Shown here: positions 34,001-60,900 of the stretch, in pieces
Numbering within the stretch: position 1 is the first letter of the stretch
How the letters are laid out: each line of letters starts with the position of its first letter
Made by a program: the position numbers and the translations under genes
NCBI GenBank assembly: GCA_029237695.1
Contig: CM055265.1
Coordinates: 110,968,773 to 111,032,772 of the forward strand
Origin: Conchocele bisecta
Taxonomy: Eukaryota; Mollusca; Bivalvia; Lucinida; Thyasiridae
DNA length: 64,000 nucleotides
Direction: 5' to 3'
The notes under the pieces: model-generated
The model's database searches: none
Told to the model about the DNA's origin: nothing
What the model saw: the letters and a program-made list of their open reading frames with translations, nothing else

Positions 34001-37000
34001 CCGAACCTCGGTGAGAAGGGGACGGCGTTCTCTATCCGCCCGGCCACGGGGGTGGTGGAGCCAACTAAGGACCTGGACTGTGAGGTGGTCTGGCACCCCT
34101 CATACCTCGCCCCGGAGGACGGCTCGTTCTCACTGATGATACACAGTGGCACCACCCTGCAGATGGCTTGTCGTGCCGAGGTGAGGTTATCACTGATGCT
34201 GCAGTCAGCACAGGCATAAAATGTCGTGCGTCGAAATTGGCGCCAGATTTCTGACAAATTCCCATTCAGGAGATACTGCATAAATACATGTATGCTGGTG
34301 CGGAGTGCAGCACCAGTGGTTATAGATGGGGTGATGATGCAGAAAACGGTTCCTTACGATGTTTGTACAATTCTAAATACTGGCCACTTGCACAGTTGGA
34401 TTGGAGTCTAATCGGTTTGCTGAAGACAGGTAGCCTATTTCAGTGAATGGCCTATTTCAGTGAATAGCTCCAGATCAGACTGCGCGGATGCGCAGGTGGA
34501 TCTGGGGCTATGCTGATCGCACATTTCATAAGGTACTTTCTCTCTACTTTCTCTACCACTGGTAAAGAAACATGTAAACAGCTTTGGCAACAATTGCAAA
34601 TTCAATTCATCATGTACATTTGCACAGGTAAATTAACATATCATTTATTCCTCAGACGACATTTGAGATACAGTGAAATCACGATGGCTCGAAATGCGAT
34701 GGCTCGAAATGACGGGCTCGCTCGAAATAGCATTGCGGTCCCGATAAATTTCCCTATATGTTTAATGTAATTTACATGCGATGGCTCAAAATGCAACTCC
34801 TCGAAAAATGCGATCCCTCGAAACATTTTTCAAGTCCCGCGGACTCGTTTCTCGCTATTTTGCTATGCGATGACTCGAAAGTCATGTCAAAGTTTGTGTT
34901 TGGCTGATTTTCACACTTCCATGTCCAATTTATTACGAACAAAGGCCGAACCGCACTCTACCTGTCTATGAAATGTTGTTTCTTTTCAAGTGCAGTTAAT
35001 TGCCTAAAATGGTGCAATTTGATCGTTAACGTTGTTGATTGCGATCAACGATATACGGCGATTTATTAAATATTCTGGGCTTCGGCCACTCGGCGCATTA
35101 ATAGTGTCTGTCGTAAGTCATTGGTCGTGGTAACTCACGGGTTATGCTCGAGTAACCCGAGTATCACAGGAACAACCAGAGTCGTTGCTCGGGTTCAAGT
35201 CGAGTTGGAACCCTAGTAACCCACGTTCTAGTGGTCCTCATGTTATTTGTGTGGCTACCCGAGAAAACGCCCATTAATAATACCGCACTTCCTAGTTAGG
35301 CAGAGATGACTGGTCATGACAAAAAGGATTTGATCTACTGAATTTCCGATCAATGCAGCATTAAATCGGCCTGCACATTCAGTTCGGGACCTGAAATGTT
35401 CGTCCTCGACAGCTATTCATGATGAATAATAGTCTGCAAGTTGATCAGCGTTTACACTGGTCACAAATTAAGTTAAGTATGTTTTGTTGTGTCGCAACAT
35501 TTTACGATTCATGACTTATTCCCGATTTTTTATGGGCGCCGTATAACAACATCGTTTGAGCTGGGCCCATACTACTGTTTCCAGTGACGTCACAACCACC
35601 TGCCACATAGTAAATACTGGAGCTTTTCTCCTTTGATAATAATTGAAATAAAGACAGTTTTGTAAATATATTTAAATACAGTTTATTTAATTTCACATGA
35701 TAACTTTAATCTGCGAATAAATACTATTATTATCTAAAACATGGATACACTCTATTATGCTTTGTTATTTCCTAAATCTGACGGGTACAGTAGTCGACAA
35801 ATATACCAAAATCGCAAGATGCGATGGCTCGAAAGATGCGATCACTCAAACAAAATATGCAGGCCCGTGGCATTTCAAGTATGGAACGCCAAATCTACAT
35901 AAACTCAAATATATATTGCTAGCAACAAATATTTGGAGCTAGCAATAAATATTTGGAGATCTCTCGAAATCATTTGCAGAGCTCTCGAAATCAATTAATG
36001 ATATCTCGAAATCATTTGGAGAGCTCTCGAAATCATTTGTAGCGAGCATTATATAACTTTGATTTGGAGAGCTCTCTAAATCATTTGGAGCTATCTCTAA
36101 ATCATTTGGAGAGCTCTCGAAATCATTTGGAGCTATCTCTAAATCATTTGGAGAGCTCTCGAAATCATTTGGAGAGCTCTCGAAATCAATTAATGATATC
36201 TCGAAATCATATAGAGAGCTCTCGAAATCATTTGCAGCGAGCATTATATAACTTGATTTGGAGAGCTCTCTAAATGATTTGGAGCTATCTCTTAAATGAT
36301 TTGGAGAGCTCTCGAAATCATTTGGAGAGCTCTCGAAATCAATTAATGATATCTCGAAATCATTTAGAGAGCTCTCGAAATCATTTGTAGCGAGCATTAT
36401 ATAGCTTTGATTTGGAGAGCTCTCGAAATCAAGTTATATAATGCTCGCTACAAATGATTTCGAGAGCTCTCTAAATGATTTTGAGATATCATTAATTGAT
36501 TTCGAGAGCTCTCCAAATGATTTCGAGAGCTCTCCAAATGATTTAGAGATAGCTCCAAATGATTTAGAGAGCTCTCCAAATCAAATGTTATATTGCTCGC
36601 TCCAAATGATTTCGAGAGCTCTCCAAATGGTTTCGAGATATCATTAATTGATTTCGAGATATCATTAATTGATTTCGAGAGCTCTCCAAATATTTATTGC
36701 TAGCTCCAAATATTTGTTGCTAGCAATATATATTTGAGTTTATGTAGATTTGGCGTTCCATATTCAAGCCATCGCGATTTCACTGTATATATTTTGAGAT
36801 GTTAAATTGTCTTGGGCTGTAATAATTTATATATTTTGTACTGTAGTTACAGTTAAAAAAATCCTACTGTCTTTAATGGTTAAATCAATTGATGTAATAC
36901 AAATTTCAAATGTAAGTTTGAGGAACTTGACTGCTACAAAATTATTTTTTTATATGCACATGGTTATATTTACACAGCGAAAGAAAAACATAAGATAAAA

Positions 37001-45900: not shown

Positions 45901-48900
45901 TCTCAATTAACATGGTTTGACAGCACTTCAGAATCATTTCCAATGGAAATGATTCTAAAGTGCTGTCAAACCATGTTGTAAATTATTCTAAAGTGCTGTC
46001 GAAGCATGTTTTTGATGATAAAAATGGAAAATAGAAAATAAACAGCAGACGACAAAAAAATTAAGATAGCGGTGTAAGGGTTAATCTACTATTGTTGCAA
46101 ATGTCGTATTAAAGGTCCATTTTCTCAGCTGCCTGTGCTATTGTGTAAACTTAACTAAAACATTATATGTACAATTCCAGGGGACAATACTGGTGAACAA
46201 TTCTGACAATGAGATTACATGGGGCATTGACCTGCGCAGCACCAACAAGGCTATAGAGGCGGGGGTGTTCAAGTTTGTGCACCCATCTGGGGCACCGTTC
46301 ACCAACCCGACCGGTGAACCAACAAAGGGCATCGAGGGAACCCTGAAACCCGGGGAAACTCAGCAGTTGGCCGTCATGTTCTGTCCCAGTAAGTATGATT
46401 TGTACGATGGAATTATGTTTGTCTGCTGTTTACTTTTTCTTATTAAAAAATATGCAAGAACAGCAGGTTGCCGTCATGTTCTGTCCCAGTAATTATGATT
46501 GCGTGACGGAATTTTTATCGTCTGCTGTTTACTTTTTATTTTCCATTTTTTCTCATGGAAAAACATACTTTGACAACTCTTTAGAATCATTTCCATTGGA
46601 AATGGTTGTCTAACCATGTTTTATTGACAAAGAAGACAAACTGTGCAAGAACAGCAAACGACAATGTCCTGTTCCACCTTTTAAGGGTTAATGTTTCTAA
46701 ATATCTTGGAACCTTCTACAGCATCTTGAAGATAATGCATATGAAATAACTTTACATACATATCTACATGTATTTTGTATTTTCATATTATGGTCCATTC
46801 ATATGGCCATCATAATCAAAATCCTGGCTTAATGGCGTCATTTTGGTTAGCATTTTTAAAAATTGGTGTTAACTATTTTTGTAATTCATTTTCTTTTGCA
46901 ATTTTCTCCTTTTCTTTTAACAATTTTTGTCGCGCCTCTGCTTGCGGACAGCGTGATATAGTCGGCACATTGGCGTACGTACGTGCGACATGCGGACAGC
47001 GTGATATAGTCGGCACATTGGCGTACGTACGTGCGACATGCGGGCTGCGGCCATCTAGTCTTTTTCATTTTCAATATTCAATATGAGTTTTCTAACCAAT
47101 GTGATAATTTTGTTTTCATTTGCTAGCTGTTTGCACGAGTCATGTGATTGGTCTTGTTGTTGTATCTGATTGTTGTTGTTGTTGTTGTTGTAGCGGAGCC
47201 AGGGAAGTTTGAAGGCCTGTTCCCGGTGGTGCTGAATGACAACTACGACAAGCCGTACCAGTACCTACAGGTGGTGGCCCAACTGAAGGCCCCGACCCTA
47301 TGGTTCGATCCCCTGGCCATCGTCCTCACACCCGTCCCACTGCTGACCGACGTCACCTCCGAGTTCACACTCCACGCGGCACAGTTTAAGAAGTAAGTAC
47401 AGTATACCAGGCTAGTTTATTTTGATATCAAATTCATCTTGTGGCCGTTTCACTAAACTTCGTACATCAAAAATGTTCATACGTGCAAAATTATGATAGT
47501 CTGTACATTTCACATTAACAACGTTTTCTTGTAAACAATTATTGGATTTAAATTTATTGAGCGTATGCAGCCTATGTTCAATAAATGTAAATCCATTAAT
47601 TAAAATTTCCAGACGATCCTAAATTTGCACTTATGAACATTTTAGTCGTACAATGTTTTGTGAAACGGCGGGCCCCAGGTGAGGCTAGGAAACGTGCAAG
47701 ATTGCTTGGCGAGCCGATGAATTCTTACCATTTCCTAATAATGCCCGATAAACTTGATATCAAAAGACACAAGCGTGGTATTCAATTTATCAAGTATTTT
47801 TATGCCAGAGGATGAGAAATTCATTGAAAAGAATGTGTACCATAATAACCCTAATTATTCGGACACCATTTATTTTGGGGAAACACTATAGGAATGAATG
47901 GCCTTTTTGTTGAATTTATCGGGGTATAAACTTGGAAAAGTCGCGGGAATACTGGACGAAGGCCGGAAGTATTCCCGCGACTTTTCCAAGTTTATATCCT
48001 CGATAAATTCAACTAAAAGGCCATTCATTCCTTATAATTCCAGCATTTGAAATAAACTCATCAAGAAAATGTGTTTATTTTCCGTTTTTAGCCAGGTTTT
48101 TTTTAAAAAAATCCAGGCTGTTGGATTGACGAAAGCCGGGCGGGCGGGTGGCGTCCACAATCAATGTTAAATTTTCGTGTTTGAGTCCATTTCTTTGTTA
48201 CTGTACCACCTAGGACCACCAAACTTTCACAGCTTCATAATCAAGGGGTGCCCACCACATATCACTATCCAACATGTTACTTTTTTTTTAACTTGACCAA
48301 TTTTTTCCGCGCAGTCGACTTAGCCATTTTCAATGTTAAGTTTTCGCGTTTTCAATGTTAAGTTTTCGTGTTTAAGTCCATTTCTTTGGTACTGTACCCC
48401 TAGGCCACAAACTTTACAGCTTCTAATCTTTAAGTACCCACCACATATCACTATCCAACTGGTTCTTTTTTTTTTTATCTCACTCGCGCAGTGACTTACC
48501 ATCAATGTTAACTTTTCGCCTTTACCAATGTTAGTTTTCCGTTTTAAAGCATTTCTTTGGTACTGTCACCTAGGACCACACTCACAAGCTTCTAACCAAG
48601 GGGTGCCTACCACATACAACTATCCAACATGTGACCATTTTTTTACCTTCACCTATTATTTCTACGTAATTGACTTAGCCATTTTCAACGTTAACTTTTT
48701 AACGTACGTCTGGTTAGAGTTTTTTGGTTAAAACTTTTTCGTTATACTATATCTCTGCAACTGCTTCGCCCCCCATTACCTTGAAACTTCACATGGGTGT
48801 TTATCATCATCCATATTTTCATTCTAACCCCCAACCGTGCGGCCCCTGTGCCCAATGTCAAGGTCAAATTACTTTGAATTTTTTTGTTAAAGTTTTTTCG

Positions 48901-51900
48901 TGTACTATATCTCTGCAACTGCTTCACCCAATACCTTGATACTTCACATGGGTGTTTATCATCATTGTTGCACCTGCTTGCGGAAAGCGCGATCCTGTGC
49001 CCAATGTCAAGGTCAAATTACTTTGAATTTTTAATTTTTTTGTTAAAGTTTTTTCGTGTACTATATCTCTGCAACTGCTTCACCCAATACCTTGATACTT
49101 CACATGGGTGTTTATCATCATTGTCGCATTCTGCTTGCGGAAAGCGCGATCCTGTGCCCTATGTCAAGTTCAAATTACTTTGAATTTTTCGTGTACTATA
49201 TCTCTGCAACTGCTTCACCCAATACCTTGATACTTCACATGGGTGTTTATCATCATTGTCACACCTGCTTGCGGAAAGCGCGATATCGTCAGAATTTTGG
49301 CATACGTCCGTCCGTTCGTCCGTGTGTCCGGTTAAAGTTTTTTGGTTTAAGTTTTTCCATCTACTATATCTATTTTTTTAGTGTCCATGCCTCGCCCCAA
49401 GGCGCGACATGCAGGCCACGGCCACCTAGTCTACAAAAAGTGGGTATAATTATGTTATCCAAGTGTCTATGCTTGGAAAAAACCTGGCCTTCGTGGCTTT
49501 GCCTCGTTTCTTGTTTTTAACTTGGCCCATATTTTCCGCGCAGTCGACTTAGCCATTTTCAACGTTAACTTTTTAACGTACGTCTGGTTAGAGTTTTTTG
49601 GTTAAAACTTTTTCGTTATACTATATCTCTGCAACTGCTTCGCCCATTACCTTGAAACTTCACATGGGTGTTTATCATCGTCCATATTTTCATTCTAACC
49701 CCCAATCGTGCGGCCCCTGTGCGCAATGTCAAGGTCAAATTACTTTGAATTTATTTGTTAAAGTTTTTTTGTGTACTATATCTCTGCAACTGCTTCACCC
49801 ATTACCTTGATACTTCACATGGGTGTTTATCATCATTGTCGCACCCGCTTGCGGAAAGTGCGATGTCGTCGGCATTTTGGCATACGTCCGTCCATCCGTC
49901 CGTCCGTACGTCCGTGTGTCCGGTTAAAGTTTTTTCGTTAAAGTTTTTCCATCTACTATATCTATTTTTTTAGTGTCCATGCCTCGCCCCAAGGCACGAC
50001 ATGCAGGCCACGGCCATCTAGTCTACAAAAAGTGGGTATAATTATGTTATCCAAGTGTCCATGCTTGGAAAAAACCTGGCCTTCGTGGCTTTGCCTCGTT
50101 TCTTGTCTTAAGAATTATTTTAACTGCGCCTCACGGTTACGGAAAGTAGTTCGGCGTGGGAGTTTACTGGGATATAAATTTTGGACAGAGACTTGCTACG
50201 AGCCAATCAAATGTTAGGGAATTGTGTAAATATTTTTGTGCTGGAATTATATAAAAATATATGGTTTCCCCACAGCAGTGAGTGTGCCAATATTTAGGGT
50301 TAGTATGTCGGTACTGGTTTAATCACAATAGCAATGTATTTGGATATAATTTGCTTTGGGAAATTTCCCAAAAGCAAACTGTGTCAGAATATTTAGGGTT
50401 ATGACAGTAGTTGGTATTATCCTGATGTCATTTGGTAATATGTGAAGCTGTCTGACCAAAAAAATGTCAGCGAAAGTAGTTTTGAATCCGTTGTAAAACA
50501 GATATGCATATCTAGCCAATGCAGTATAGTACAATTTGTTATCAGTCAACCTGTTTCTAAGAAAAAATAGTGAGTCTACATTTACTTTAACTGATATATC
50601 TTTCATCAAATGAAAACTATATGTTTTTAAATATTCCCATTTGTTATTTAAGGCTGATGGTTGTTGCTTCTCTGTTTAATTTTGCTTATTCTACCGTGCC
50701 AGGGCTACACAGATCCAAGTTCACCTACCAGAAGTGGAATGTGAGGACGGCAGCATAATTTCTCCTTTGAAGGTCATATTTCCCGAAGGTCAAGGTCAGT
50801 GAATTTGAATGTGGCAGAAACATTACGTTTGTTTCACGAACTTGAAATATTATTTGTAGCTGATGGCAGAAATTAGTACATGTATATTAGTTAATTAAAT
50901 TTTCACATTTCACACCGGTTGAAAATGCCATAGTCTCAATTTTTCCAGTCACAGCCACAATATTTAATTGTGTTAGAAGATCATAACAATATAAATCCAG
51001 TATTTTTCCATAAATTTATTCTTGAAAATGGATAAATTTATCCAGATTTCATTAAAATTCTGTCCCATGCAGAGGTGCGAGCTTGCTGCGGAGACGAAGG
51101 TCAGATAGAGCCATACAGCCTGTGCTGCAATGTCACGTTCTCCAGCCCGAAGCCCGTCTCATTTTCCGAGTTTATCAAGTTCTCCTGGGAGGGCGGTGGG
51201 ATATTCTCCCTGCTGGTGACCGCCACGGCCGACAACTGCCTCATGAGTTGTTACCCTTTCCTCGCTCTACACCGGACCGACCACCAGATTGTGTGTGAAC
51301 AGGTGAGTTAGCTGGTCCCCCCACCCCACTTGGAGTGCGGTGGGATATTCTCCCTGCCGGTGACCGCCACGGCCGACAACTGACTCATGAGTTGTTACCC
51401 TTTCCTCGCTGTACACCGGACCGACCACCAGATTGTGTGTGAACAGGTGAGTTATCTGGCTCCGCCACCCTTCCCCTGGCCATCCCCTGGGAGGGTGGTA
51501 TTAGGGTGATTATCATTGATCTCTTGAATTTGTCTTGTAATTTTAGACTGACTCAAATGCTAGTTGAAAGTGGCAATTAAACCAATTGTAGGTCTTGGCG
51601 CCTAAGGGCTTTAAGACGATCTCCAAAATATTCAAATATTAGTCCACTTATAAGAAGGGGGTGTTTTTTTCCTGAAAATATGAAAATTACTTCCTGTTAG
51701 TTAATAGGCCATTGAAATGCCAATCTATCACTACTGTAGGGCTCTGCACGTAAGGGGAGTAAGACTGTGTCCAACATTTTCAAATTATACAAGTTGCTAG
51801 GGCATTGAAATGCCAATCTGTTCATAGACTATTGAAACGGCAATCTATCACTTTTGTAGGGGTCGGCACCAAAGGGCCGAAAGACAATATCCAAGGAGAG

Positions 51901-54900
51901 CCTGACCAACACGGGCGAGGCGGTGTTCGTGCCGTGCCAGACTCCACAGCTCAACAGTCGGCCGAGCACGAGCGCGACCAGCTCCAACTTCCAGGTTTCC
52001 TCGTCCAGCTACGAATCGTCCGCCAGTGTCACAGGTATGTCCAATATTGATATCTACGTTATTCTCTTCACAACATTCCATAGAGGGAAAATTCTCAATT
52101 TTTTATTTCAAATTTAAAGTGTATGATGTGACCAACATTTGAACTGTCTCTTTGAACATATACTTTCTTGCAGAAATAAAAAAAAGTAGAAAATAATTGT
52201 ACTTCAAGATTATGAACATAGGCCATGTTCCTTCTTTGAACCCTACATATACAGTCAAACCTCCACAAAGGGTCACCTCTCTACCAGAAACCTCTCTCTG
52301 TAAAGCCGAATGTAATTTGAATGTATATTTTACCTCTATAAAACAGCTACCTCTGTACAACAGCCATTCTTGTGTCTTTCCACATGGCAATGGTCTATGA
52401 ATGTGAGGTCGCACTGTATCTGCATGATTCCATGAAATTTGCTCTTTGGAAGTTTAGAAATACCCATGACTAACTCATTCAGTTGTTGTTAACTTCCTTT
52501 CGATTTTCAGATTTATAATACCCAGAAAGAATAATGAGAAATCTCCAGTGTTTACCAATTTATCAAATATAGTATATCATATATGTGACTGTGACTGGAG
52601 AAGGTTTTGAGGCCAGTATAGATCCAGATCAGCCTGTTCATCGCATCCGCACAGGCTGATCTTGATCTGCAATGTTCGCCGTTGCCATTAATGAAACACC
52701 CGTCATGCTTCTCTCGAGCAATATATTTCAGGCTGCATGAGTGTTCTATTTGATCAGGCTTTAAATGACCTTAGCTGTTGATAGGCTGTTAAACACTAAT
52801 AAATCAAATCCATTTGATCAGATGATATACACTGGTCACAAATACCATAAGCCCTATTTCTCCAGTCACGGCCACATATATATCGGTACCAAAACAATTT
52901 CGCTACCCAAACTTGCCTCCATAGACTCAACAGACCAGAGCACACCAGTGAACCGTGACGGAGCCATGAACAAGCCTCCGTCCGACTCGGAGATGGGTAT
53001 GCCACGGATGAACCAGGACCTGGCGTCTCGCTCCCTCGGCTCCGCCATGTTCCCAGACGAGGATTCCGAGGAGGGGATATTCCACATGGAGGTGCTGCTC
53101 TCCGTACAGCGCTGGTTTGCGGCCCAGGGCTGGCCCGGTGGACCGTTCCCCATCGCCATACCACACTCACTCAGGATGTAAGTTTGTGGACCATTCCCCA
53201 TCACCATGCCACATTCACTCGGGATGTAAGTTTGTGGACCATTCCCCATCACCATACCACACTCATTCAGAATGTAAGTTGGTGGACCATTCCCCATCAC
53301 CATGCCACATTCACTCGGGATGTAAGTTTGTGGACCATTCCCCATCACCATACCACACTCACTCAGGATGTAAGTTTGTGGACCATTCCCCATCACCATG
53401 CCACACTCACTCAGGATGTAAGTTTGTGGACCATTCCCCATCAATATACCACACTCATTCAGAATGTAAGTTGGTGGACCATTCCCCATCACTATACCAC
53501 ACTCACTCAGAATGTAAGTTGGTGGACCATTCCCCATCACCATGCCACACTCACTCAGGATGTAAGTTGGTGGACCAATCCCCATCGCTATACCAAACTC
53601 ACTCGGTATGTAAGTTGGTGGATCATTATCCATTGCCATACCACACTCACTCAGGATGTCAGTTGGTGGACCATTCCCCATCACTCACTCGGTATGTAAG
53701 TTGGTGGATCATTATCCATTGCCATACCACACTCACTCAGGATGTCAGTTGGTGGACCATTCCCCATCACCATACCATTGTAAGCTGGCCATTCCCCATC
53801 ACTATACCACACTCACTCAGTGTGTAACTTGGTGGACCATTCCCCGTCACTATACCACACTCACTCTGGATGTAAGTTGGATTGTCGGTGGACCCTTCCC
53901 CGTTACTATACTAAACTCACTCAGGAAGTTGATGGACCATTCCTCATAGCCATACCACACTTGCTCAGGGTGTAAGTTTGTGGACCATTCCCCGTCACTA
54001 TACTACATTCACTCAGGATGTAAGTTGGTGGACCATTCCCCATAGCCATACCACACATCATCAATGAAGTTGTCCTGCTTCTAACAAGCAATGTAGAACG
54101 TTATTCGACTACAAGAATGTGCTATTTGATCAGGAGCTACACTGGACAAATCCCATGAGCCCCATTTCTCCAGTCACAACAACATTTGAGCAGAGCAATA
54201 AAGCCACAATCAATACTTGGTCACTAAAACTGTAGGTTGTAGAATTTTGTCTGCACATTTCACTCATCTTTCTTGGAGATGATGGGGTGTTGGGTGCTGG
54301 TGGCTGGGCCATTAAGTAAAAGTACATTAAAATGTTAACTGATTTAATGGAGCTGTCAATGTTACTTATATGTCCCAGGAATATTTGTGGCACAAAACGA
54401 GGAAGGTATGTTTTAACAATAAAGTTAGCTTTCATGTTTGTTGATTGATTAAAAACAAACATGTGCCCAAATATAGCATATTATGGCCCATCTAACATAT
54501 GCATGATCATATTATTCTGTGTTTGGGCCCAGGTTTGCTTAGGGCAATTCCAGAATTAATCTGGTGGGGGCTGGGGCACTTTTTTTCAAACACCACCACC
54601 CATAACAATTTTCGTTGACCCCCAGCAACCATCAATTTATAATATTACCGAACCCCGCCACCCATCATTTAGAAAGAAGAAAAAAACCCACCCCCCCTGT
54701 CAATAAAAAAAAAAAGCCAGCCCCACCACCCATCCATAAAAAAAAATAATATGTCGACCCCACCACCCATCAATAAAAATTACTGACCCACCTTATAAAC
54801 AAAGGAAAGTAATGCCCATAACGAGCGACCATACGTACTTAGAATAACAGCTGACATAACGCGCGGTAAACTGAAATGGCCTGCGTGACAATTGACATTT

Positions 54901-57900
54901 ACGTTCAAACAAGATTTTCACGGTGTGTAATCGATCGTATTTCCTCGCCACCATATGAAACCCGACTCGAGAAACACAAATTAAGTTGTTGAATTCTGAA
55001 TTTGTCAATAGTTTGCGCGGTCTAAGAAATCAAACAAATGTGAAAATAATTTTGTTTTTACAAAATATTAGACTCGTCTAAGGAGATAATGTGCTTGTTG
55101 TGGATGGGTGGGTATGGCGGTATATTTTTTTATGTTACAATCTCGTGTATTTGCGATCTCGCCTTCCGCTTTTGGAAATCCGATTTGCCCATGCATGTGT
55201 AGACAGCATGCACGTTGGATTTGCGTTCTACATGTATGTACGCACATATTTATAAAAGCATGCTAGTTCGAATTGTGTTCTACGTACGTACGTGCATGTA
55301 ATGTATGCAGAAAACTCAATTTCACCCGAAATTTAGTACAATAAATAGCGTTAATAGGAACCTGCCAATCTCTGTATTCTATGTCTCTGACGAGACGTAT
55401 GGTAATTACCGATAACACCATTGATTTTTTGCAGTTTTACACTGCGAACCCACAATTTCCCGCGCGTATTTTTTCGTTCGGGTGGACAAAAACACGCGGG
55501 ACGTGACGTATGGTAATTACCGATACCACCATTAATGTTTTGCAGTTTTACACTGCGAACCCACAATTAAATAATTGCCGTGTTTCACTTGATCCCATAA
55601 TTAAATAATTGCCGGTTTTCACTGGAGCCCATAATTAAATAATTACTGTTATTCACTGGCCCCCACCATGCATCAATTAGAATTTCCTGTGGACCAAACC
55701 ACCCATACATTTTAATTTCATGCAGACCCCACCACCCATCAATAAATAATTTGGGTGCCACCCACCCCTCCCTCCCCCCCTCCCCCCATGTTTCATTTTG
55801 GAATCACCCTTACTGTAAAATTGATGTTACCAAATGACTACAGTGTAATGACCCAACATAAACAAGTTGGCATTGTTTCTTTTACAAAAACAATGGTTTA
55901 CATACGCATTGCATGGCATAATATATTACCTGATAAATAGAATACCAGGCCAGTGTCATTTGACAACAAGATTATCAGACTCGGCTTGTGAACAGTAAGA
56001 ATTCCTTGGCAAGCATCGGAATTTCACATGTTTCCTAGCCTTGCTTTATAATCTTAATATAAAATTAATTAGCCTGGTATTCTCTATGTTTTTGTAATAA
56101 TTATAGTATTATTATTTTTTTATTTGTGCTATGCTGTAGTTATAAGTTTATTGTTGAACACGTTCATTTATAGTTATTGTTATTTTTTATTTGTGCTATG
56201 CTGTAGTTATAATAAGTTTATTGTTGAAGATGTTCATTTTACAATGTACTTAATTTCACCAGCGGATATACATGGCCTATAATTACAAAATATTATAAAT
56301 TGAAGTTTTTACCAACTTAGCTTCCAATCAGCCATGCACCATGGTAGGATATAAATGTGCATGTTTGACTGACTAAACCCTTAGAATGCCGCAAACGTAA
56401 ATGCTTGTCTGCTGTTGTGTTACATTAATTGTCTTCCTTCTCAATAAAAACATGGTGTGACAACATTTTAGCATCATTTCCATTGAAACTGATTCTAAAA
56501 TGTTGTCAAATCATGTTTTTTTATCAGAAAAATTGAAACTAAAAAATAATCAGCAGGCGACAAAATTGAATTCAGCATTGTAGGGGTTAACATGGAGACC
56601 TGTGTACCACAGTCACTCGGGATGTAAGTTGATGGACCATTACTCATTGCCATACCACACACACTCAGAGTGTAAGTTGGTGGACCATTCACCATCACTA
56701 CCACACTCACTCAGGGTGTAAGTTGGTGGACCATTCACCATCACTACCACACTCACTCAGGATGTAAGTTGGTGGACCATTCACCATCGCTACCACACTC
56801 ACTCAGGGTGTAAGTTGGTGGACCATTCACCATCACTACCACACTCACTCAGGGTGTAAGTTGGTGGACCATTCACCATCACTACCACACTCACTCAGGA
56901 TGTAAGTTGGTGGACCATTCACCATCACTACCACACTCACTCAGGATGTAAGTTGGTGGACCATTCCCCCATAACCATACCACACTCACTCTGGATGTAA
57001 GTTGAATTGTCGGTGGACCATTCCCCCGCCGTCACTATACTACACTGACTCAGGAAGTTGGTGGACCATTCCTCATAGCCATACCACACTTGCTCAGGGT
57101 GTAAGTTTGTGGACCATTCCCCGTCACTATACTACACTCACTCAGGATGTAAGTTGGTGGACCATTCCCCATAGCCATACCACACATCATGAATGAAGTT
57201 GTCCTGCTTCTAACAAGCAATGTAGAACGTTATTCGACTACAAGAATGTGCTATTTGATCAGGAGCTACACTGGACAAATCCCATGAGCCCCATTTCTCC
57301 AGTCACAACAACATTTGAGCAGAGCACATAAAGCCACAATCAATACTTGGTCACTAAAACTGTAGGTTGTAGAATTTTGTCTGCACATTTCACTCATCTT
57401 TCTTGGAGATGATGGGGTGTTGGGTCTGGGTGGCTGGGCCATTAAGTAAAAGTACATTAAAATGTTAACTGAATTAATGGAGCTGTCAATGTTACTTATA
57501 TGTCCCAGGATTATTTGTCACACAAAACGAGGAAGGTATGTTTTGTAACAATAAAGTTAGCTTTCGTGTTTGTTGATTGATTAAAAACAAACATGTGCCC
57601 AAATATAGCATATTATGGCCCATCTAACATATGCATTAATACATGTGTAGTTTTTGCCTGAAATTTGTTAAGCCCTCTTCCGGATTGCGTGATATTGTGA
57701 TCACAAAGGCGTCCTGGTGTCGTCTATTTGGCATTCATATGCACCCCTCCACCTACCCTTCTACCCATCCAAGTTCTGTTTACTGACAATGAATCGGCAG
57801 ACTCGACATGAGGGCTGCATGCTGATCATATTATTCTGTGTTTGGGCCCAGGTTTGCTTACTGTAAAAATTGATGTTACCAAATGACTACAGTGTAATAC

Positions 57901-60900
57901 GACAACATAAACAAGTTGGCATTGTTTCTTTACATACGCATTGCATGGCATAACACTTAACCTGATAACTAGAATACCAGGCCAAATGTCATTTGACAAC
58001 AGATTAGCAGACTCGGCTTGTGAACAGTAAGAATTCCTCGGCAAGCATCGAAATTTCACACGTTTCCTAGCCTTGCTTTATAATCTTAATATCAAATTAA
58101 TTAGCCTGGTATTCTCTATGTTTTTATACTAATTATAGTATTATTATTTTTTATTTGTGCTATACTGTAGTTATAAGTTTATTGTTGAACACGTTCATTT
58201 ATAGTTATTGTTATTTTTTATTTGTGCTATGCTGTAGTTATAATAAGTTTATTGTTGAAGATGTTCATTTTACAATGTACTTAATTTCACCAGCGGATAT
58301 ACATGGCCTATAATTACAAAATATTATAAATTGAAGTTTTTACCAACTTAGCTTCCAATCAGCCATGCACCATGGTAGGATATAAATGTGCATGTTTGAC
58401 TGACTAAACCCTTAGAATGCCGCAAACGTAAATGCTTGTCTGCTGTTGTGTTACATTAATTGTCTTCCTTCTCAATAAAAACATGGTGTGACAACATTTA
58501 GCATCATTTCCATTGAAACTGATTCTAAAATGTTGTCAAATCATGTTTTTTTATCAGAAAAATTGAAACTAAAAAATAATCAGCAGGCGACAAAATTGAA
58601 TTCAGCATTGTAGGGGTTAACATGGAGACCTGTGTACCACAGTCACTCGGGATGTAAGTTGATGGACCATTACTCATTGCCATACCACACACACTCAGAG
58701 TGTAAGTTGGTGGACCATTCACCATCACTACCACACTCACTCAGGGTGTAAGTTGGTGGACCATTCACCATCACTACCACACTCACTCAGGATGTAAGTT
58801 GGTGGACCATTCACCATCGCTACCACACTCACTCAGGGTGTAAGTTGGTGGCCATTCAACCATCACTACCACACTCACTCAGGGTGTAAGTTGGTGGACC
58901 ATTCACCATCACTACCACACCACTCAGGATGTAAGTTGGTGGACCATTCACCATCACTACCACACTCACTCAGGATGTAAGTTGGTGGACCATTCCCCCA
59001 TAACCATACCACACTCACTCTGGATGTAAGTTGAATTGTCGGTGGACCCATTCCCCCGCCGTCACTATACTACACTGACTCAGGAAGTTGGTGGACCATT
59101 CCTCATAGCCATACCACACTTGCTCAGGGTGTAAGTTTGTGGACCATTCCCCGTCACTATACTACACTCACTCAGGATGTAAGTTGGTGGACCATTCCCC
59201 ATAGCCATACCACACATCATGAATGAAGTTGTCCTGCTTCTAACAAGCAATGTAGAACGTTATTCGACTACAAGAATGTGCTATTTGATCAGGAGCTACA
59301 CTGGACAAATCCCATGAGCCCCATTTCTCCAGTCACAACAACATTTGAGCAGAGCACATAAAGCCACAATCAATACTTGGTCACTAAAACTGTAGGTTGT
59401 AGAATTTTGTCTGCACATTTCACTCATCTTTCTTGGAGATGATGGGGTGTTGGGTCTGGGTGGCTGGGCCATTAAGTAAAAGTACATTAAAATGTTAACT
59501 GAATTAATGGAGCTGTCAATGTTACTTATATGTCCCAGGATTATTTGTCACACAAAACGAGGAAGGTATGTTTTGTAACAATAAAGTTAGCTTTCGTGTT
59601 TGTTGATTGATTAAAAACAAACATGTGCCCAAATATAGCATATTATGGCCCATCTAACATATGCATTAATACATGTGTAGTTTTTGCCTGAAATTTGTTA
59701 AGCCCTCTTCCGGATTGCGTGATATTGTGATCACAAAGGCGTCCTGGTGTCGTCTATTTGGCATTCATATGCACCCCTCCACCTACCCTTCTACCCATCC
59801 AAGTTCTGTTTACTGACAATGAATCGGCAGACTCGACATGAGGGCTGCATGCTGATCATATTATTCTGTGTTTGGGCCCAGGTTTGCTTACTGTAAAATT
59901 GATGTTACCAAATGACTACAGTGTAATGACCCAACATAAACAAGTTGGCATTGTTTCTTTTACATACGCATTGCATGGCATAACACTTAACCTGATAAAT
60001 AGAATACCAGGCCAATGTCATTTGACAACAAGATTAGCAGACTCGGCTTGTGAACAGTAAGAATTCCTCGGCAAGCATCGAAATTTCACACGTTTCCTAG
60101 CCTTGCTTTATAATCTTAATATCAAATTAATTAGCCTGGTATTCTCTATGTTTTTATACTAATTATAGTATTATTATTTTTTATTTGTGCTATACTGTAG
60201 TTATAAGTTTATTTTTGAAAATGTTCATTTTTAGTTATTGTTATTTTTTATTTGTGCTATGCTGTAGTTATAATAAGTTTATTGTTGAAGATGTTCATTT
60301 TACTTCATTTTACCAGTGGATATACATGGCCTATATAAATAACAAAATATTACAAATTGAAGTTTTTACCAACTTAGCTTCCAATCAGCCATGCACCAAG
60401 GTAGGATATAAATGTGCATATTTGACTGACTAAACCCTTAGAATGCTGAAAACGTAAATGCTTATCTGCTGGTGTGTTACATTTTGTCTTCCTTCTCAAG
60501 AAAAACATGGTGTGACAACACTTTAGCATCATTTACATTGGAACTGATTATAAAATGTTGTCAAATCATGTTTTTTTTATCAGAAAAATTGAAACTAAAA
60601 AATAATCAGCAGGCGACAAAATTGAATTCAGCATTGTAGGGGTTAACATGGAGACCTGTATAGAGCCAGCATGTGTATTTAACAGGCCGTTCATCTAATT
60701 TGTCCGTATGATATAACATCCAGACACCTGTAATCGTGCTATGTCAATTTTCGTGCCCACTGCATATCTCGTGAATGATGTCGAACGCGCAGCGTTACGT
60801 CACAATAAAATCATTTATAAAAAATGTCAGTCATGATTCAACAATATATAGGAATGAATGGCCTTTTTGTGGAATTTATCGGAGTATAAACTTGGAAAAG

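Follow-up and report, generated by a model that had tools for sequence, protein, structure and literature searches.

Here, we analysed a window of 64,000 nucleotides of the Conchocele bisecta genome (GCA_029237695.1, contig CM055265.1, positions 110,968,773 to 111,032,772 of the forward strand), which carries exons of the gene CFAP47. All positions given below are those of the window. One of these exons ends in a minisatellite, in which the last part of the exon and the first nucleotides of the intron, including the splice donor, are repeated in tandem. Two further arrays with the same donor lie deeper in the same 9.9-kb intron, and splice sites at other boundaries of CFAP47 have copies nearby. 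The features are collected in Table 1.

Table 1 Features of the CFAP47 locus in the window.
Feature	Position	Strand	Description
Second boundary copy	46361..46537	+	one copy (46461-46537) of the donor at which the exon stops at 46388; copied donor GTAATT
Third boundary copy	51185..51470	+	one copy of the donor end of the exon that stops at 51301; 144-bp step, 94%
Fourth boundary copy	51586..51894	+	acceptor end of the exon that begins at 51860; copies at 51700-51774 and, weaker, 51586-51626
CFAP47 exon (exon 30 in the initial annotation)	52925..53177	+	253 nt; ends in phase 2 (AT|G)
Array 1	53137..54056	+	48-bp minisatellite; 19 aligned units followed by a partial unit; 14 intact GTAAGT
Founder unit	53138..53185	+	40 nt of exon and 8 nt of intron; holds the authentic donor (53178)
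In-frame TAA	53179..53181	+	met by any transcript passing the first donor
Array 2	56597..57204	+	11 GTAAGT; 6 of 11 units are 46 bp; within a 2030-bp block
Array 3	58627..59234	+	11 GTAAGT; near-identical copy of array 2
Next CFAP47 exon	63103..63324	+	joined to 53177

The exon 52925-53177 reads AGG AT|GTAAGT at its end. Translated and joined to exon 63103-63324, it matches CFAP47 in PDB entry 9ijj over 116 residues with an E-value of 1.7e-16, while on its own it reaches only 0.0084. The match runs across the joint 53177/63103. This joint is also crossed without an insert by P0025, a 298-residue open reading frame from a public assembly, and by P0026, a protein of Bugula neritina. By this homology the first donor, at 53178, is the coding donor of CFAP47. 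At the level of homologous proteins, the data fit splicing at the first donor. A 15-kb reading frame with its stops written as X had no match among PDB chains, a result that is uninformative since the frame contains a known exon.

In the frame of the exon, TAA stands at 53179, directly after the first donor, and likewise follows the others of donors 1-10, as the initial annotation had proposed when it stated that the first donor alone keeps the frame open. Since this TAA is in frame past the first donor, every distal donor would yield a truncated protein. The exon measures 301-685 nt with donors 2-10, which add 48 to 432 nt to it. For donors 11-14 of array 1 the extension is 518, 694, 794 and 842 nt, respectively, and it grows to 3446-3971 nt for the donors of array 2 and to 5476-6001 nt for those of array 3; the stop at 53179 is contained in every one of these extensions. 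The further claim that any distal donor adds a multiple of 48 nt together with a stop is correct throughout as regards the stop, but the multiple of 48 nt applies to donors 2-10 only.

The repeat unit of array 1 has 48 nt and is composed of the exon segment 53138-53177 (40 nt, or 41 counting 53137) and of 8 (7) nt of intron. The tandem units begin inside the exon and extend to about 54056, and an alignment of 19 of them shows that they are internally diverse. Donors 1-10 follow each other at an exact spacing of 48 bp, from 53178 to 53610. TRF reports a period of 48 with 13.6 copies in 53137-53777, and the window contains 20 occurrences of GATGTAAGT, where shuffles would lead one to expect 0.62. 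The initial annotation had described a 48-bp array that starts at the exon and has 14 GTAAGT, ten of them at 48-bp steps, with further donors in the arrays downstream; all of these were counted there, the downstream arrays contributing 11 (within 56590-57202) and 11 (within 58620-59232). It had also described the unit as 47 nt of exon plus the donor. Its length of 48 nt is confirmed, but the share of the exon is not, being 40-41 nt with 7-8 nt of intron. In a search of the 1.89-Gb assembly, in which the best candidates alone were scored and very common words were skipped, 7 of 7 matches to array DNA lay at the CFAP47 locus, and a dispersed or mobile minisatellite was ruled out within that search. 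The unit pattern had no match among bacterial/archaeal and viral contigs, as expected of animal sequence. Furthermore, residues 48-240 of P0022, a reading frame of the array, gave 6572 candidates among 5.8 billion proteins, none of them at E <= 0.01.

The direction of descent can be read from the homologues. A search with both exons found 19 proteins, all of which were inspected; 13 contain the array exon and 6 the next exon. Seven of the 13 end one residue past the conserved SLR (GLR in P0014), and P0017 continues only five residues past it. The other five (P0004, P0006, P0008, P0009 and P0011) extend at least 9 residues into the intron, and none of these five informative sequences has a second unit after the homologous exon; P0006, P0008 and P0009 are mutually close and may represent one lineage. 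The sequence of the exon end is kept in Bugula and in the PDB 9ijj chain. Two CpG sites of the exon appear as CA in most array units: the first has A in 17 of the 18 other units of array 1 and C in one, and the second has A in 13 of the 18. The claim that the array arose from the exon is supported by the conserved exon end of CFAP47, by the homologous exons, which in all five informative cases are free of the array, and by the CA reading at the CpG sites. The opposite direction, from array to exon, is ruled out by the homology of the exon end and of the junction to CFAP47.

Three other boundaries of CFAP47 carry nearby copies. Next to the exon that stops at 46388, the copied donor has decayed to GTAATT. 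In the copy next to the exon ending at 51301 the donor is intact and an in-frame TGA lies inside the copy. The authentic copy of this exon end encodes SLLVTATADN, the third residue of which is not P; at this position, P is found in five of six other spanning sequences (P0026, P0027, P0028, P0029 and P0031) and L in P0030. The downstream copy retains P at this residue and has a stop. For the acceptor at 51859, a copy 120 bp upstream has a score of 65, where shuffles reach at most 26; a further, less certain copy scores 32, with 25 for the shuffles. TGTAG is retained in every copy of this acceptor.

With a score of at least 50, 4 of 14 tested boundaries have a copy nearby, a count that includes the array and stops short of L028, the exon that follows beyond the window. 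For comparison, a neighbouring copy was found at 178 of 1281 random complex positions in the window and at 532 of 3563 in 20 sampled stretches of 10 kb (13.9-14.9%), which gives P values of 0.12-0.14. The P value is 0.17 against all positions of the window, 0.10 against those outside 53100-60700, and 0.21 against the genome sample before filtering (4286 positions, 17.3% with a copy). Boundary 47193 would fail the complexity filter; without it, the count is 4 of 13 and P is 0.09-0.12. At a score of 60, the count is 3 of 14 and P is 0.30. Enrichment of boundary copies in CFAP47 is not significant across these counting schemes (P 0.09-0.30), in which the score is crude and the positions are not independent. 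Boundary copies are not clearly commoner than genome-wide tandem duplication predicts, and a modest excess is compatible with a sample of 14. About 15-17% of the sampled positions (loci L008-L027) have a similar copy within 600 bp, and L021 reaches 67%. Elsewhere in the window, at 35946-36724, there is a 21-bp minisatellite whose orientation, by the consensus units of TRF only, seems to flip along its length, giving it the look of a large near-palindrome.

The donors of the array were examined for signs of selection by ranking the donor hexamer among all six-column windows of the 19 aligned units of array 1. Its mean column identity is 0.93, compared with 0.88 overall. Its rank is 10th of 43 for array 1 and 15th of 41 for array 2; for both arrays combined it is 8th of 43. 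No selection on the donors is seen in this ranking, where nine windows of array 1 stand above the hexamer; such conservation is what common descent would give. The three arrays together have 36 intact GTAAGT, which is a high number for pure drift, and homogenisation together with block copying accounts for it. In predicted pairing with U1, 13 of the 14 donors of array 1, including the real one, reach -5.4 kcal/mol and one reaches -6.4, and the real donor is the weakest of seven CFAP47 donors tested. As the donors of array 1 are near-equal in this prediction, the choice among them must rest on position. Because the copies pair about equally well and the real donor is the weakest of the seven, nothing intrinsic is predicted to protect it, and leakage to distal donors is possible under this model. 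The suggestion that the array acts as a decoy or as a tunable splicing switch was not upheld: the donor columns have no special conservation, copies at the other boundaries are about as frequent as at random positions, and one of the copied donors is decayed. A switch role for the array is not favoured.

Arrays of this kind have been described in other animals. Lancelet mirages are minisatellite-like repeats of exon-intron boundaries, found on both sides of exons and unstable in length; the authors suggest that regular splicing is undisturbed, but consider it possible that the copies serve as cryptic sites (PMC3087553). A second report states that no aberrant mRNAs arise from the mirages in lancelet Adh and TnC and adds PGBD5 with similar repeats (PMC3902484). 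The lancelet mirages (Adh3, TnC, globins and PGBD5) resemble the CFAP47 array in several respects. In both, the repeat spans the boundary and carries the splice site, donor and acceptor sides are both affected, the units fall within 10-160 bp, and evolution is concerted with the array ends left out. In CFAP47, the source of the unit is the authentic exon edge, located at one end of the array. The exon unit has a G at position 8 that none of the 18 other units of array 1 shares, consistent with inner homogenisation that does not reach the edge unit. The two cases differ in phylum and in gene. They also differ in size, CFAP47 having 14 intact donors (36 with the block copies) compared with the 3 or 6 units given for lancelet BflGb6.

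Splicing-modifying repeats of human genes are a second group for comparison. The human CBS 31-bp VNTR, c.1444_1467+7(16_21), has a unit of 24 nt of exon and 7 nt of intron (PMC2630376). A rising repeat number is reported to lower CBS activity, and the repeat is called non-coding (PMC5188458); this VNTR is also treated in PMC1395315. Like the CFAP47 array, it has many copies of a unit that straddles the donor (24 + 7 compared with 41 + 7 or 40 + 8). However, length polymorphism and an effect on activity are described for CBS, while the CFAP47 array is known from one assembly. CBS also provides, in 844ins68, a counter-case to early-site preference: this 68-bp duplication copies an intron/exon junction, and there is a strong preference for the more distal of its two sites (PMC2630376). 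In human IFI6 (6-16, G1P3), two downstream repeat units of a minisatellite serve as donors (PMC4526556). There, as in CFAP47, a minisatellite supplies several donors at an exon end, but the downstream units of IFI6 lead to different protein isoforms, whereas a distal donor of CFAP47 leads to a stop. Finally, tandem repeats at exon-intron boundaries change the introns of human paralogs (PMC2812944). The minisatellite expansion at gene boundaries is shared with CFAP47; in the paralogs it is described as giving new introns or longer exons, while the gene structure of CFAP47 seems unchanged. By these analogies, the mechanism proposed in the initial annotation has real precedent and the type of array itself is not new. 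In a limited literature search, covering titles and the starts of abstracts, we found no report of such boundary arrays in molluscs or bivalves.

We favour, with a probability of roughly three in four, the reading of the array as a mirage-type boundary minisatellite that is mostly passive, with leakage to distal donors possible. Most probably it arose as a by-product in a genome that abounds in short tandem duplications and is not a switch. A 48-nt piece, made of the last 40 nt of the CFAP47 exon and 8 nt of adjoining intron, would have been duplicated in tandem, probably by slippage or unequal exchange, and the duplicated unit would then have expanded and been partly homogenised, before the array and its flank were copied in 2-kb blocks. 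The structure of the unit shows that the donors are present as passengers, because they lie inside the duplicated piece. Splicing generally favours short exons and early sites, and for most pre-mRNAs the expected choice would be the first donor, whose exon is the shortest and which is made first. Transcripts from distal donors would carry the observed TAA right after the true junction. Transcripts with a premature stop are targets of nonsense-mediated decay, and those from distal donors would presumably be removed in this way.

Alternatively, the array could be a leaky, length-dependent attenuator, in which some transcripts take distal donors, gain the TAA and are destroyed, and a longer array leaves less full-length CFAP47. 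The near-equal predicted U1 strength of the array-1 copies and the stop after each of donors 1-10 agree with such a role, as do the matching layout and reported activity effect of the CBS repeat and the use of two downstream units in IFI6. Set against the lack of a selection signal on the donors and the normal splicing ascribed to lancelet mirages, these points leave the attenuator improbable, though worth considering. By analogy, competition among near-identical donors, with an immediate stop upon distal choice, might even let allele length set the dose of CFAP47, which we consider somewhat less probable again. If true, this would be a CBS-like dose control of a sperm/cilia gene far from humans, acting via the stop after the first donor.

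The mostly passive reading includes a late copying of blocks, and here the assembly itself has to be considered. An intronic block of 2030 bp is present twice, almost identically, at 56584-60643, with the flank of array 1 as a more distant, third relative. Arrays 2 and 3 align with 606 identical columns, no mismatches and 4 gap columns, as might be seen if at least these two arrays were an assembly artefact. However, the flanks downstream of them show 20 mismatches and 26 gap columns next to 1376 identical columns, and the internal diversity of array 1 is unlike the outcome of a simple repeat error. We regard an artefact as very unlikely; since the arrays are near-identical while the downstream flanks have diverged, the blocks speak for a young duplication more than for a plain error. 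Least credible is a selected function of the many intronic U1 sites, whether as a regulated decoy or as a U1 platform against premature polyadenylation in the long intron (U1 binding within introns suppresses premature polyadenylation, known as telescripting), for although the total of intact donors would suit it, the windows that outrank the donor hexamer and the lack of the array in the informative homologues argue against it.

The array is a clean natural experiment, in which splicing picks among many near-identical donors in near-identical exon context and at regular steps, with only one of them productive. Moreover, the four copied splice sites among 14 suggest that boundary duplications are common where a genome has many short tandem duplications, and common boundary duplications would bear on the origin of new splice sites and introns.
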